A DNA stretch of 64,000 nucleotides from Deltaproteobacteria bacterium (GCA_029547805.1 JAKPOP010000010.1:459675-523674); one strand, 5' to 3'. Numbered from the stretch's first letter, positions 41,764 through 46,454 are shown. The notes: generated by a model not told the origin, from the letters alone. Translations and numbers: made by a program.

Positions 41764-42327
41764 TCAGGGCTCCCCTTCGCCGGAAGGGGCATCCGGGTCG
41801 TAGAGATAGAGGGGGCCACGAACCGTCTGCTTGAGTTCCCGCCCGAACCGCCGTCGCCAGTCCTCCAGGTAGAGCACCCGGCGCAACGTGCCCCGAAGCC
41901 ACCGGACCTCGTCGAGGTTCATGCGGTCCAACAGCCGGGGCGGCTGGTAGCGCAGGTGACGGATCTCCCGAAGGACCTCCTCCGCCCGGGAGTCCCGCAC
42001 CTCCTGGACCTCCAGGGGGAGGCCCTCCTCCTCCGGCCGCTCCACCCGCCCGATGTTCCGCAGGAAGTACTGGGGACAGAGGTTCTCCAGGTGTCCCTCG
42101 ATCCCCTCGGGGCGCTCCAGGGGTCGCTGCTGCACCGTGCGACCGCGGATCCGCCCGGCGCGTCGCAGCAGCGCCCGGAGCCGACGATAGACCGGACGGT
42201 CCTCCATCGACGGGCGATCGGCGGTCCGCTCCACGGGAAGGGGTCGCTCCAGGCGGTCCGCCAGGCGTCGGGCAAAGGCCTCGGGGCGCAGGGTCAGGGC
42301 CTCCGGCGACCGTCCTTCCTCCCCCAC
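41764..42327 (-). CDS. Unrecognised basic protein, last gene of the FHA-Ycf46 operon
   Basis: 187 residues, rich in Arg, Leu and Glu, predicted mostly helical and soluble, with no signal peptide or membrane segment. I recognise no domain. Repeated LRxxLRR-type stretches (RRLRALLRRAGR, VRWLRGTLRRVLYLEDWRRRF) suggest a helical, possibly nucleic-acid- or protein-binding fold. It begins 16 bases after the DUF2997 gene on the same strand and so likely belongs to that operon. It ends one base from the convergent CDF gene. Confidence 0.6.
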   Translation of the reverse strand: MGEEGRSPEALTLRPEAFARRLADRLERPLPVERTADRPSMEDRPVYRRLRALLRRAGRIRGRTVQQRPLERPEGIEGHLENLCPQYFLRNIGRVERPEEEGLPLEVQEVRDSRAEEVLREIRHLRYQPPRLLDRMNLDEVRWLRGTLRRVLYLEDWRRRFGRELKQTVRGPLYLYDPDAPSGEGEP

Positions 42328-42343
42328 CGCCCCCCCCTCGCGG

Positions 42344-42553
42344 CTACTTCTTTCCGACCCGGACGTGCTCCTGGGCCGTCGCCGTCTCCTGGACCTCTTC
42401 CTGGTAGTACTCCCCGGTGTTCTCCTGGGCGACCAGGGCCCCCAGTTCCTCCAGGAACTTCGTGACTTCCTTGCAGGACCGCCCCTTCACGCCCTTCACG
42501 CCGAAGGTGAAGGTCCCGTCGGGCCGGATCTCGATGTCGATCTGGTGTCCCAT
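42344..42553 (-). CDS. DUF2997 family small protein
   Basis: 69 residues, beginning MGHQIDIEIRPDGTFTFGV and containing VKGRSCKEVTKFLEELGA, which fits the DUF2997 family of small proteins. The family commonly lies next to DUF1257 (Ycf35-like) and Ycf46-like AAA proteins in cyanobacteria and some other bacteria, as here. The function is unknown. The start is the ATG at 42553 after GGAGGGAT. A much longer frame on this strand is a shadow. Confidence 0.8.
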   Translation of the reverse strand: MGHQIDIEIRPDGTFTFGVKGVKGRSCKEVTKFLEELGALVAQENTGEYYQEEVQETATAQEHVRVGKK

Positions 42554-42588
42554 CGATCCCTCCTGCCTCGTCCCCGGCCGGACCGTGG

Positions 42589-42987
42589 TCAGAACTTCTT
42601 GACCTGGATGTGGATGGTCTGGTCCGCCGTGGTCTCCTCCAGGGCCAGCGTGTAGCCCCGCTTCTCCAGTTCCTGCTTCACCTTCCGGTGGGTGTACTTC
42701 TGGGTCACCAGGCGCACGAAGGTCTGCTCGTCGATCCCCCGGGTGGTCTCGACGCCCCACCAGTCGGCGATGAACTGGACCCCCTGGGGACCCACCCGCA
42801 CCCCCACGTCGTAGGTCTTGCTGACATGGATCACCAGGTCCGCCTCGGTGGTCTGCTTCTGGTATCCCCGGACCTTGAGCCGCTGGCCCTCGGCCGCCTC
42901 GGTGAAGGCGAACCCCAGGTCGTGGAGGGCCTGCTTCAGGGTCACGATGTCGTGGATCTTGGTCTGGACGGTGGTGAAGTGAGACAT
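42589..42987 (-). CDS. DUF1257 (Ycf35-like) protein
   Basis: 132 residues starting MSHFTTVQTKI. It matches the DUF1257 family, whose plastid and cyanobacterial members are called Ycf35. It contains ADLVIHVSKTYDVGVRVGPQG, VQFIADWWGVE and a C-terminal alpha/beta part ending HIQVKKF. The biochemical role is not established. It lies 9 bases after the AAA gene in the same transcript and is followed by DUF2997, the usual partner. Confidence 0.85.
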   Translation of the reverse strand: MSHFTTVQTKIHDIVTLKQALHDLGFAFTEAAEGQRLKVRGYQKQTTEADLVIHVSKTYDVGVRVGPQGVQFIADWWGVETTRGIDEQTFVRLVTQKYTHRKVKQELEKRGYTLALEETTADQTIHIQVKKF

Positions 42988-42996
42988 GGCCTTCCT

Positions 42997-44562
42997 CTAC
43001 ATCTCGATCCGGGGCGCCGTCTCCTCGGTCGCCTCGTCCCCGGCCAGCGAGGCCCGCCGGGCGCGTCCATTGGCCCAGTCCCGCATCCCGTCGATCTTCT
43101 CCTTCATCGTCAGGGACAGGGGCACCATCTCGGAGACGCTGGCCAGGATCCCCTCGGTGGTCAGGTCCTGGGCCCGATCGAAGGCGTCGTAGAGGGCGCT
43201 GACCACCGCCTGCTCGATCTCCGCCCCGCTGAAGGACTGGGTCCGGGCCGCCACCTCGGCCACGTCGAAGACCCCCGGGTCCCGGGTCACCCGGCTGCGC
43301 CGGTTCAGTTTCTCGATCTGGATGCGGAAGATCTCGGCCCGCTCGGTCGGGTTCGGGAGGTCCACGAAGAAGATCTCGTCGAACCGCCCCTTCCGCAGCA
43401 ACTCCGGCGGCAGCATCGAGACGTCGTTGGCGGTGGCGATGACGAAGACCGGCGTGGTCTTCTCCTGGAGCCAGGTGATGAAGGAGGCGAAGACCCGGGC
43501 CGTGGTCCCCGCATCGGACTCCCCGGAGGACTTCGTCCCCGAGAAGCCCTTCTCGATCTCGTCCAGCCACAGGATCGACGGGGCCACCGCCTCGGCGGTG
43601 CGGATGGCCCGGCGGATGTTCTCCTCCGAGGACCCCACGAGGCTGCTGAAGACCTTGCCCACGTCCAGGCGCAGCAGGGGCATCTGCCAGAGTCCCGACA
43701 CGGCCTTGGCCGTCAGGGACTTCCCGCAGCCCGGGACGCCGATCAGCAGGATCCCCTTGGGAAGCGGCAGCCCGAAGTCCTGGGCCTCCTGGGAGAAGGC
43801 CTTCTGGCGCTTCTTGAGCCAGTCCTTCAGGACCTCCAGTCCTCCCACGTCGCTCCACTGGGCATCGGTCTCATAGAACTCCAGGATCCCCGACTTGCGG
43901 ATGATGTGCTTCTTCTCGGCCAGGATCGTGGCGATGTCGAAGTCCTTCTTGCGGACCAGGGCCTTGCTGAGCACGTAGGAGATCTCGCTCTCGGTGAGGC
44001 CCAGCGCCGCATCGACCACCCGCTTCTTCTGGCCGGGGTCCTTGAGCATCGTGATCCCCGGGCGGGCCTGCAACGGCACGCTGGCCAGCGTCCGGTCCAG
44101 CACCTGCTCGATCTCCTGGGCGGTGGGGAGGTCGAAGTCCACCACCGCCATGTCCTTCTCCAGTTCCAGGGGGGCCTTGAAGACCGCGGACAGGAGCACG
44201 ATGTGCTTCTTGTAGCGACTGGAGGAGGCGAAGGACCGGCACAGGTCCCGCAGGCGCCGGACGATCGTCGGGTCCGTCAGGTAGGGATGGAAGTCCCGCA
44301 TCACGAAGATGGCGTGGTCCTCGTATCCCTCGATCCCATCCAGGGCCCGGGCCGGGTCCTTCACGTCCTTGGACAGGACGTTGCCTTCCTCCCGGAAGCC
44401 CTCGGTGCAGGACCAGGTGACGATCTTGCGCCCCCGGTCCCGGCCAATCTCCCGGAGGCGGCCCTCGACCCGTTCCTCCTCGGGGCTCACGATGTAGATC
44501 AGCGGGTAGGCCGCCTTGATCAGGTCCGTGATCTCCTGCGTGCTGGACACGCCCGTCTTCAT
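42997..44562 (-). CDS. Ycf46-like AAA+ ATPase
   Basis: 521 residues. The first 200 form a degenerate AAA-like domain ([14 protein letters not shown], the [10 protein letters not shown] segment) without a P-loop. The second half is a true AAA+ module: Walker A GVPGCGKS near residue 278, Walker [10 protein letters not shown] near 333, sensor-1 FVIATAND, and arginine-finger region [21 protein letters not shown]. This is the layout of Ycf46 proteins of cyanobacteria and plastids. The start overlaps the stop of the FHA gene as ATGA. A role in remodelling a protein partner is inferred. Confidence 0.85.
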
Positions 44563-46454
44563 CCGCCCTCCCGTGTCGACGCGCCCTCGGCGAGGTCTGC
44601 GTCATCGAGGGACTGACGCAGCACCTGCACGTCCTTCGCCAGCATCCGCTGGAGGTTTCGCAGCGAGGCGTGCATCTCCTGGGAGTCCTGGCCCCCGAGG
44701 GCGCGCCGGACCCGGTCGGGCCACTCCCCAGGGTCGGCACCCAGGGCCTCGATGATGGGCAGGATCTCCCGGATCGCACCCTGGAGCACCAGCAGGTCCT
44801 CCTCCAGGGACTCCACCTGGGCCACGAGCCCCCGGAGGGCCGGCGAGGCCCCCAGACCGCCTGTCTCCGGCCCGATCTCGGGCCCCTCGACGGCCTTCCG
44901 CTGCTCCAGTTCCCGCTGCAACTCCTCCACCCGCAGCGTCAGCGTCCGGACCTTCTCGGCCGCTGCGGCCCCCTCGGCGGCCACCTGGGCCTGGGTCTCG
45001 GTCCCGGCGACCAGGTCCCGGCGCATCGCCTCCATCGCCTGACTCAGGCCCGCGACCTTCTCCCGGAGGGCTTCCAGTTCCCGCATCGCCGCCCGGTAGT
45101 CCGGGTGGTCCGAGATGTCCTCCTTCTCCAGCCGACGGACCCGGGCCGCCTCCTCCATCTCCCGGAGCCGCCCCTCCAGGTCGTCCCGCTCGGCCCGCAG
45201 CGCCGCCAGTTCCGCGGTCGTCTCGGCCTGCAGGGCCCGCAACTCGTCCACCTCGCGGCTCTTCCGGTGATAGTCGTCCAGCAGCCGCTGCTTCTCCTGT
45301 TCCAGGTCGGCGATGCCGACGCCCAGGCGGACCTCCCGGATCTCCCGCTCCTTCCGTTCCAGGTCCCGGCGCATCGACGCCATCAGGTTCCGGTTCTCGT
45401 CGATCACCGCCTCCAGGTTCCGGAGTTTCCGCTCCAGGTCCTTCTGGCGCCCCGCGTCTCCCTTCACGTACTCTTCGAGCCGCTGGGACTCCTCCCGGAG
45501 CACCCGAAGGTCATATTCCCGACCGTCCAGTTCCCGGCGCAGCCGCTCGATCTCCCGGTCCTTGTCCGTCAGGCGGACCTTCAGGGAGGACATCTCCTCG
45601 GAGTTCTGGGTGGTCCGCCCCCGGACCGCCTCCAGCTGGGCCCCCAGGGCCGCCACCTTCTCCCGGAGGTCCGCCGCCTCGGCCTCCCGGTTCGAGAGGT
45701 CCGCCCGGGAGGCGTCGAGGAGCCCCTGGAGGTGGATGTTCTGGTCCCGGAGGTCCTGGCTCTTCCGGAGGATGCCGTCCATCGCGGCAGCGGCGCTGGC
45801 GGCCCGGGACTCGGCATTCTCGACCCGGCGCTCGGCGTCGCCCAGCAGGCCCTTCAGGTGCTGGATCTCGTCCTCCAGTTCCCGGGTTCGATCGCCATCG
45901 GGCCTCCCGGGGGATCGCTGCTCGGCCCTCAGGGCCTCGTTCTCGGCCCGGAGGCGCTGCAGTTCGGCCAGCAGGGCCGGGTCCACCCGCAGGGCCGGGT
46001 CCAGCACCGGCCGGGAACCGGTCCCTCCCCGGGAGGGCTCGTCCACGCGCACCGAGGGAACCGGGGCCTCGACCTTCCGGGACACCTCCCGGTCCTCCAG
46101 CGTCCGGTCCTCCGGGGTCCGGACCTCCCGGCTACCGCGGCCTGCGGCCCTGGCGGGAGCGCCCTCCCGGAACACCGCCTCGACCTCGCCGAACCGGATC
46201 CGGTCCCCGTCCTGGAGCCGGTGGGGCCCCTGGACCGGCTGGTCGTTGATGCGGCAGGGGTTGGTGGAGCTCCGATGGAGGTACTCCCACCCCTCGGGGG
46301 TCTTCCGGATGCGGCCATGATCCCGGCTCACGGAGGGATCGGACACCACGATGTGGCAGGTGGGACTCCGACCGACGATCGCCCCCCCCGGAACCTCGGG
46401 AATCTCCTTCCGCTGAAGCCTTCCGGAGGCGTCCTTGAATTCGATGGTCGCCAT
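44559..46454 (-). CDS. FHA-domain protein with very long coiled coil
   Basis: 631 residues. An N-terminal forkhead-associated domain (about residues 20-100: GAIVGRSPTCHIVVSDPSVSRDHGRI, then INDQPVQGPHRLQDGDRI) binds phosphothreonine peptides in known homologues. After a Pro/Arg linker, about residues 165-560 form a near-continuous Glu/Arg/Leu-rich coiled coil of SMC-like look but without ATPase heads. It heads the operon with the AAA ATPase. The ATG at 46454 is 7 bases past an extended -10, so the message is probably leaderless. No kinase gene is visible nearby. Confidence 0.85.
   Translation of the reverse strand: MATIEFKDASGRLQRKEIPEVPGGAIVGRSPTCHIVVSDPSVSRDHGRIRKTPEGWEYLHRSSTNPCRINDQPVQGPHRLQDGDRIRFGEVEAVFREGAPARAAGRGSREVRTPEDRTLEDREVSRKVEAPVPSVRVDEPSRGGTGSRPVLDPALRVDPALLAELQRLRAENEALRAEQRSPGRPDGDRTRELEDEIQHLKGLLGDAERRVENAESRAASAAAAMDGILRKSQDLRDQNIHLQGLLDASRADLSNREAEAADLREKVAALGAQLEAVRGRTTQNSEEMSSLKVRLTDKDREIERLRRELDGREYDLRVLREESQRLEEYVKGDAGRQKDLERKLRNLEAVIDENRNLMASMRRDLERKEREIREVRLGVGIADLEQEKQRLLDDYHRKSREVDELRALQAETTAELAALRAERDDLEGRLREMEEAARVRRLEKEDISDHPDYRAAMRELEALREKVAGLSQAMEAMRRDLVAGTETQAQVAAEGAAAAEKVRTLTLRVEELQRELEQRKAVEGPEIGPETGGLGASPALRGLVAQVESLEEDLLVLQGAIREILPIIEALGADPGEWPDRVRRALGGQDSQEMHASLRNLQRMLAKDVQVLRQSLDDADLAEGASTREGG

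Follow-up and report, generated by a model that had tools for sequence, protein, structure and literature searches.

Extracellular contractile injection systems (eCIS) of the Afp/PVC-like type are recognised by a set of core parts that comprises Pvc16_N, sheath, gp19 tube, LysM CIS_tube, VgrG, gp25 and J proteins. In the type VI secretion system (T6SS), the sheath is recycled by the AAA+ protein ClpV and the machine is controlled by a threonine phosphorylation pathway (PpkA, PppA and Fha), in which Fha binds phospho-TssL and activates secretion (PMC3953482). A separate line of work concerns Ycf46 and Ycf35 of cyanobacteria and plastids, and describes a cyanobacterial gene cluster, DUF2997-ycf35-fed7 (PMC4284462). 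The locus analysed here is a five-gene operon located in a 64,000-nt stretch of DNA (hereafter the window; G000:C4:459675-523674) from an uncultured Myxococcota metagenome-assembled genome (MAG). It encodes an FHA/coiled-coil protein, a Ycf46-like AAA ATPase, a DUF1257 protein, a DUF2997 protein and a fifth protein that represents a new family with the motif PQFxLRN. The operon is probably, when the statement is taken as a whole, a cytosolic accessory and control module of a two-sheath, eCIS-type contractile injection system (CIS), a device resembling a phage tail, and the AAA ATPase of the module would be gated by phosphothreonine. Its association with CIS is strong and a real role in these machines is very likely, the step at which it would act being assembly, loading or firing.

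The comparison with the described systems reveals both likenesses and differences. The eCIS core parts are also found in the host genome and in linked loci. An FHA protein and a PP2C phosphatase accompany a contractile machine, as in the T6SS pathway, and one homologue is a kinase fusion; the host, however, lacks TssM, has a Ycf46-like AAA protein instead of ClpV and has no identified partner kinase. Like ClpV, the window AAA protein is an ATPase for which a contractile sheath is a possible substrate, but it comes from the CDC48/Ycf46-like family and has a degenerate N domain and one active ring. The AAA, DUF1257 and DUF2997 families are the same as those of cyanobacteria and plastids (Ycf46 and Ycf35, with DUF2997 and Fed7), where CIS, the FHA/coiled-coil protein and the fifth protein are absent and the plasmid-borne AAA proteins fall outside the CIS group. 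The open-access papers found on eCIS, tCIS, CISSc and hot-spring CIS mention no module with FHA, Ycf46-like AAA, DUF1257 or DUF2997 proteins, although subscription journals lay outside the search and prior notice is possible; the hot-spring paper lists an ATPase gene of unspecified type. Searches of open full texts gave no paper that links FHA or pentapeptide proteins to eCIS, and of the papers that they gave on DUF2997 (two) and DUF1257 (three), none is functional.

Operon layout and conservation

The host assembly amounts to 4.08 Mb (97% complete) and has a same-genus relative, JAGOKF010000002.1, which is likewise a Myxococcota MAG. The operon lies on the minus strand and begins with the FHA/coiled-coil gene (44559..46454), whose product of 631 aa carries an FHA domain at residues 26-89 and a coiled coil of ~500 aa (Pfam FHA 2.8e-16). 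It continues with the genes for the Ycf46-like AAA ATPase (42997..44562; 521 aa; Pfam AAA 2.4e-30), the Ycf35-like DUF1257 protein (42589..42987; 132 aa; Pfam DUF1257 1.1e-19) and the DUF2997 protein (42344..42553; 69 aa with a conserved GxxC; Pfam DUF2997 2.3e-12), and ends with the fifth gene, U5 (41764..42327), which has a GTG start and encodes a helical protein of 187 aa without a Pfam family. The FHA and AAA genes overlap by 4 bases, and the subsequent gaps measure 9, 35 and 16 bases. These open reading frames (ORFs) and coordinates match the original prediction of five co-directional genes separated by a 4-base overlap to 35-base gaps. Promoters within the cluster, which that prediction had regarded as contrary evidence, did not appear, as neither a sigma-70-like promoter nor a minus-strand terminator-like site was found inside the operon (weak evidence at 70% GC). 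A cation-efflux-like gene flanks the operon tail-to-tail and a TonB-like gene head-to-head, both named from a reading of the ORFs.

A survey of 60 loci (59 from other genomes and the window) found all five genes, in the same order and on the same strand, in 45 of them, and most of the incomplete loci lie at contig ends or in outlying families. DUF2997 is present in all 60 loci, the AAA gene in 59, the FHA/coiled-coil gene in 52, where it is conserved together with the AAA gene, and the fifth gene in 50. Because the five genes keep their synteny across many families, the operon is well beyond chance. The data support the conclusion that AAA, DUF1257 and DUF2997 are conserved neighbours behaving as a unit, an adjacency already proposed in the original prediction, and that the FHA protein is their constant partner across Myxococcota. 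The accompanying idea that the two DUF families are known mainly from cyanobacteria and plastids had to be abandoned, since DUF1257 turned up in 72 of the 284 Myxococcota genomes, and among the 53 relatives in 43, and the triad (AAA, DUF1257 and DUF2997) or parts of it occur on plasmids and phages of several phyla. Two contigs met in the survey seem to bear wrong MAG labels: the one titled Klebsiella pneumoniae (L147) carries an operon of Myxococcota type, and the operon of a Rhodobacteraceae-titled one (L159) has a map identical to that of a deltaproteobacterial locus (L160).

The protein sequences retain the features of their families. The core motifs of the FHA domain are kept (GR at 27-28, SxxH at 43-46 and the Asn of the SxN loop), with NP in place of the usual NG. 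The AAA protein consists of a degenerate N-terminal domain (residues ~1-230), which is conserved and has no Pfam model, followed by one active AAA domain, whose Walker A motif GxPGCGKS, second Walker motif, sensor ATAND and arginine-finger region RKGRFDE are conserved across 57 relatives. With this Ycf46-type N-domain AAA, DUF1257 and DUF2997 encoded together, the operon contains the Ycf46/Ycf35/DUF2997 triad. The AAA protein also matches the PADLOC profiles IetA (2e-25) and TRIP13 (4e-9), which would fit an anti-phage defence system. These matches cover only the generic AAA domain, however, the other operon proteins match no defence family beyond coiled-coil similarity, no non-AAA partner of Iet or CD-NTase-type defence was matched among them in PADLOC, and the operon is conserved at class level rather than sporadic, all of which makes a defence function extremely improbable.

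The DUF1257 protein gave a good AlphaFold model (predicted local distance difference test 90, predicted template modelling score (pTM) 0.78), whose sole good match in BFVD is an unnamed viral protein. No fold is claimed for it because the PDB matches were sub-threshold in spite of the quality of the model (BamC N-domain, E 0.04; several SRPBCC/AHSA1-like proteins with TM <0.4). The fifth protein is marked by the motif PQFxLRNIxRxER and a Trp, of which PQFxLRN..R and the Trp are nearly invariant. The original prediction had been unable to place this helical protein, and neither Pfam, NCBIfam, PHROGs, PADLOC nor the PDB gave a match, even with a profile of 33 sequences; its model (pTM 0.28) is unreliable and too poor for a structure search.

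Association with two-sheath contractile injection systems

Co-occurrence was assessed in 284 Myxococcota genomes, 67 with and 217 without DUF1257, by Fisher tests that ignore phylogeny. A sheath was detected in 63/67 DUF1257-positive against 71/217 DUF1257-negative genomes (Fisher 2e-20), and at E<=1e-17 in 56/67 against 9/217 (Fisher 3e-38); the corresponding figures for Pvc16_N were 59/67 and 55/217. Within the host's class, 38 genomes have both DUF1257 and Pvc16_N, 4 have DUF1257 only, none has Pvc16 only and 10 have neither. As the two are missing together across families, in G002, G003, G009 (family f1), G014 (f3), G020, G027, G030, G033 (f9), the pattern suggests several joint losses. 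Further, a sheath was found in 8 of 13 DUF1257-positive Planctomycetota and in 2 of the 34 DUF1257-negative ones.

Physical linkage points in the same direction. Gene calls around distant homologues include tail sheath, baseplate J, VWA-FHA, PP2C and pentapeptide-repeat genes, and AAA, DUF1257 and/or DUF2997 lie inside CIS clusters or <=~12 kb from them in Spirochaetota (Spirochaetales L161, L165/L226, L224, L225 and the Treponema succinifaciens plasmid pTRESU01), Planctomycetota (L227, L168, L232) and other Myxococcota (L201 of G198; L229+L171 of G292). In the myxobacterium G292, a single run contains Pvc16, sheath, tube, baseplate and FHA genes, AAA, DUF1257 and DUF2997, with the FHA/coiled-coil gene inside the CIS cluster (L171). 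No CIS cluster was seen to contain the fifth gene. The order in L226 is J, sheath, DUF1257, P2I, FF, FHA, VWA, tube, sheath, tube, CIS_tube, VgrG, AAA, DUF2997 and pentapeptide; the triad is thus split, DUF1257 standing apart from AAA-DUF2997, yet both halves remain within the CIS cluster. DUF1257 is placed similarly in L224 and L225. On pTRESU01 of T. succinifaciens DSM 2489, DUF1257 lies between tube and P2I genes, and the AAA protein, encoded between VgrG-family genes, is 52.5% identical to that of the window. In L227, L232 and L201, the triad lies ~5-12 kb from sheath genes.

Several other genes were noticed at these loci. Two candidates for further CIS accessory parts accompany the module in L171, L078, L226, L125 and L167: a protein with pentapeptide repeats and a small helical one whose pattern is near KxYVxxG. 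A winged-helix AAA protein (PF22977) beside the module in L171 was considered as an Afp15-type CIS marker and rejected as uninformative because it is multi-copy and occurs in 49/53 relatives, including those without CIS. On the T. succinifaciens plasmid, a radical-SAM-like 4Fe-4S protein beside the AAA gene (L240:11914-12522) has ECEIIINPDGIVTTTG at its end, a stretch similar to the beginning of DUF2997; a separate DUF2997 was not found on the plasmid stretches examined.

The phylogenies of the AAA and sheath proteins agree with this association. In the AAA tree, a single group (support 91/80) unites 44 proteins of Myxococcota, Planctomycetota and Spirochaetota, apart from 13 others that comprise plasmid homologues (including cyanobacterial ones), a mycobacteriophage, other planctomycetes and L178; for 42 of these 44, a sheath was detected in the genome of origin. 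In the sheath tree, built by a quick method, the DUF1257-positive genomes of the three phyla carry a two-sheath lineage, and DUF1257-negative Myxococcota fall mostly in a separate lineage with sheaths of ~590 aa (9 rows, SH-aLRT 100). Four DUF1257-negative genomes (G025, G113, G201, G244) have a sheath of the two-sheath lineage, and their lack of DUF1257 may be due to loss or to assembly gaps.

The CIS genes of the host itself are found in two parts. The first, an eCIS-type cluster at G000:C19, 88 kb (L194/L195), contains Pvc16_N, sheath, gp19 tube, a tail-chaperone-like gene, a second sheath, a second tube, CIS_tube/LysM and a VgrG-like gene, the Pvc16/Afp16-type cap protein being encoded at G000:C19:87937-88425 (Pvc16_N 7.7e-18). 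The second, at C4 660-666 kb (L234), contains gp25, J, Tail_P2_I with PASTA and a conserved protein whose sequence starts with FKRLNFFRGFLTT. The core parts of an eCIS are therefore present (sheaths, gp19-like tube, gp25/J baseplate, VgrG-like spike and Pvc16-type cap), and the host CIS appears to be a two-sheath, eCIS-type machine whose particle could be extracellular, cytosolic or membrane-bound. A T6SS was discarded as the host machine, as the genome has no match to PF06761 for the TssM/IcmF membrane core. Two observations concern the parts of this machine. The N-terminal PASTA domain of the Tail_P2_I baseplate protein in this CIS lineage (L234:11562-12407 and L165:8438-9289, Pfam-confirmed in L165) hints at peptidoglycan binding, and a Pro/Arg-rich ORF of 1251 aa in the host cluster (L195:5269-9024), for which the searches made gave no recognisable family, might be a tape measure or structural protein.

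Because these genes lie elsewhere, on C19 and ~155 kb off on C4, the original prediction could not see the link and took the operon for a candidate undescribed system, free-standing by implication. An operon that is compact, conserved and far from CIS genes in the host's class would indeed fit a stand-alone phospho-signalling complex, made of the FHA scaffold and the AAA ATPase and unrelated to CIS, but such a complex is highly unlikely in view of the linkage and the co-occurrence. It is because of co-occurrence, physical linkage and phylogeny together that the operon is placed with CIS.

Phosphorylation and the proposed mechanism

Several genes connect the module with threonine phosphorylation. 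In the host, the FHA gene belongs to the operon and a PP2C gene (C19:83402-84178) lies ~4.5 kb from the first CIS part. A PP2C/small lipoprotein gene pair is found beside CIS genes in G000 (the host), G001 and G005, and beside the FHA-AAA operon in L052, L063, L079 and L125, and tandem FHA genes lie upstream in Kofleriaceae-type loci. In a Bacillota MAG (L178:5771-7990), a Ser/Thr kinase domain (Pkinase 8.5e-26) is fused to a Ycf46-like AAA protein directly before DUF1257. The original prediction had suggested control by phosphorylation through an FHA scaffold; this is plausible in view of the repeated presence of PP2C genes close by and of the one kinase-AAA fusion among the homologues.

In the mechanism proposed, the Ycf46-like AAA protein would form a ring and use ATP to remodel a CIS component, either as a chaperone of assembly or loading or by recycling subunits. 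Its substrate adaptors would be DUF1257, DUF2997 and the fifth protein, and the FHA/coiled-coil protein would scaffold the ring and read a phosphothreonine that a Ser/Thr kinase sets and the CIS-linked PP2C removes. The signal could thereby switch on assembly or firing, much as PpkA, PppA and Fha control the T6SS. This specific phospho-gated remodelling is offered tentatively, as a possibility somewhat short of even. A broader proposal, in which the AAA protein, DUF1257 and DUF2997 are the dedicated ATPase of the whole two-sheath lineage, that is, an assembler or recycler resembling ClpV that evolved from another AAA family, FHA-gated by threonine phosphorylation, is rather doubtful; if it were true, the Ycf46 and Ycf35 proteins of plastids would be related to a chaperone of contractile machines. 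The association with CIS gives a first concrete functional context to the uncharacterised Ycf46, Ycf35/DUF1257 and DUF2997 of plastids and cyanobacteria and to one unnamed family. It also suggests that non-T6SS CIS can have a phospho-controlled ATPase module of their own, in which case assembly or firing would be regulated from within the producing cell. The proposal is testable, as a CIS cluster with AAA and DUF1257 genes is carried on the plasmid of a cultured isolate, T. succinifaciens DSM 2489.

Occurrence of the triad without contractile genes

A number of findings weigh against a CIS-linked, phospho-gated module. The operon is not adjacent to CIS genes in the host or in most of its class. 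No sheath was detected in 5/13 DUF1257-positive Planctomycetota or in the genome with the kinase-AAA fusion of L178 (G289), and the Fisher tests, as stated, take no account of phylogeny. The support of the CIS clade is slightly under the tool's starred threshold, and one of its members, L081 (G193), lacks a detected sheath, which adds one extra change on the tree; another, L136, was not scored for sheath. None of the genes beside the operon was recognised as a kinase gene, a genome-wide kinase search not having been made. Finally, plasmids of Bacillus licheniformis, Paenarthrobacter, Planktothrix, Pseudanabaena and Geminocystis carry the triad, or AAA together with a single partner, in the absence of CIS, and the triad is likewise found without CIS in a phage-like contig and in cyanobacteria.

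These last occurrences could be explained by a general AAA-DUF1257-DUF2997 (Ycf46/Ycf35-type) machine, perhaps engaged in redox- or Fe-S-linked proteostasis, whose linkage to CIS came about by sharing or hitchhiking. The triad or its parts stand beside the ferredoxin gene fed7 in cyanobacteria (PMC4284462), beside Hsp70/GrpE on the Pseudanabaena plasmid and beside 4Fe-4S or radical-SAM proteins in Paenarthrobacter and Treponema, as well as on the CIS-free Bacillus and Planktothrix plasmids. Against this stand the strong co-occurrence with CIS, the clustering of the AAA proteins of CIS genomes across three phyla and the retention of both halves of the split triad in the CIS clusters of Spirochaetota, and the general machine is accordingly considered unlikely. 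Since CIS are not the only context of the triad, its CIS-linked form is best regarded as a specialisation confined to one branch.

Phages and plasmids extend this distribution. DUF1257 is present in the Prochlorococcus phages P-SSM2/P-SSM5, where it is presumably host-derived; a tblastn search of phages with the window DUF2997 gave no match, and a search of viral contigs gave one weak match only. In a marine viral contig (L181:3588-4131), DUF2997 and DUF1257 adjoin Hsp20-like and purM-like genes. On the Pseudanabaena plasmid (L237:3864-9808), GrpE, Hsp70, DUF1257, an ATPase, DUF2997 and AAA genes form a single run, which hints at a chaperone role for the triad.

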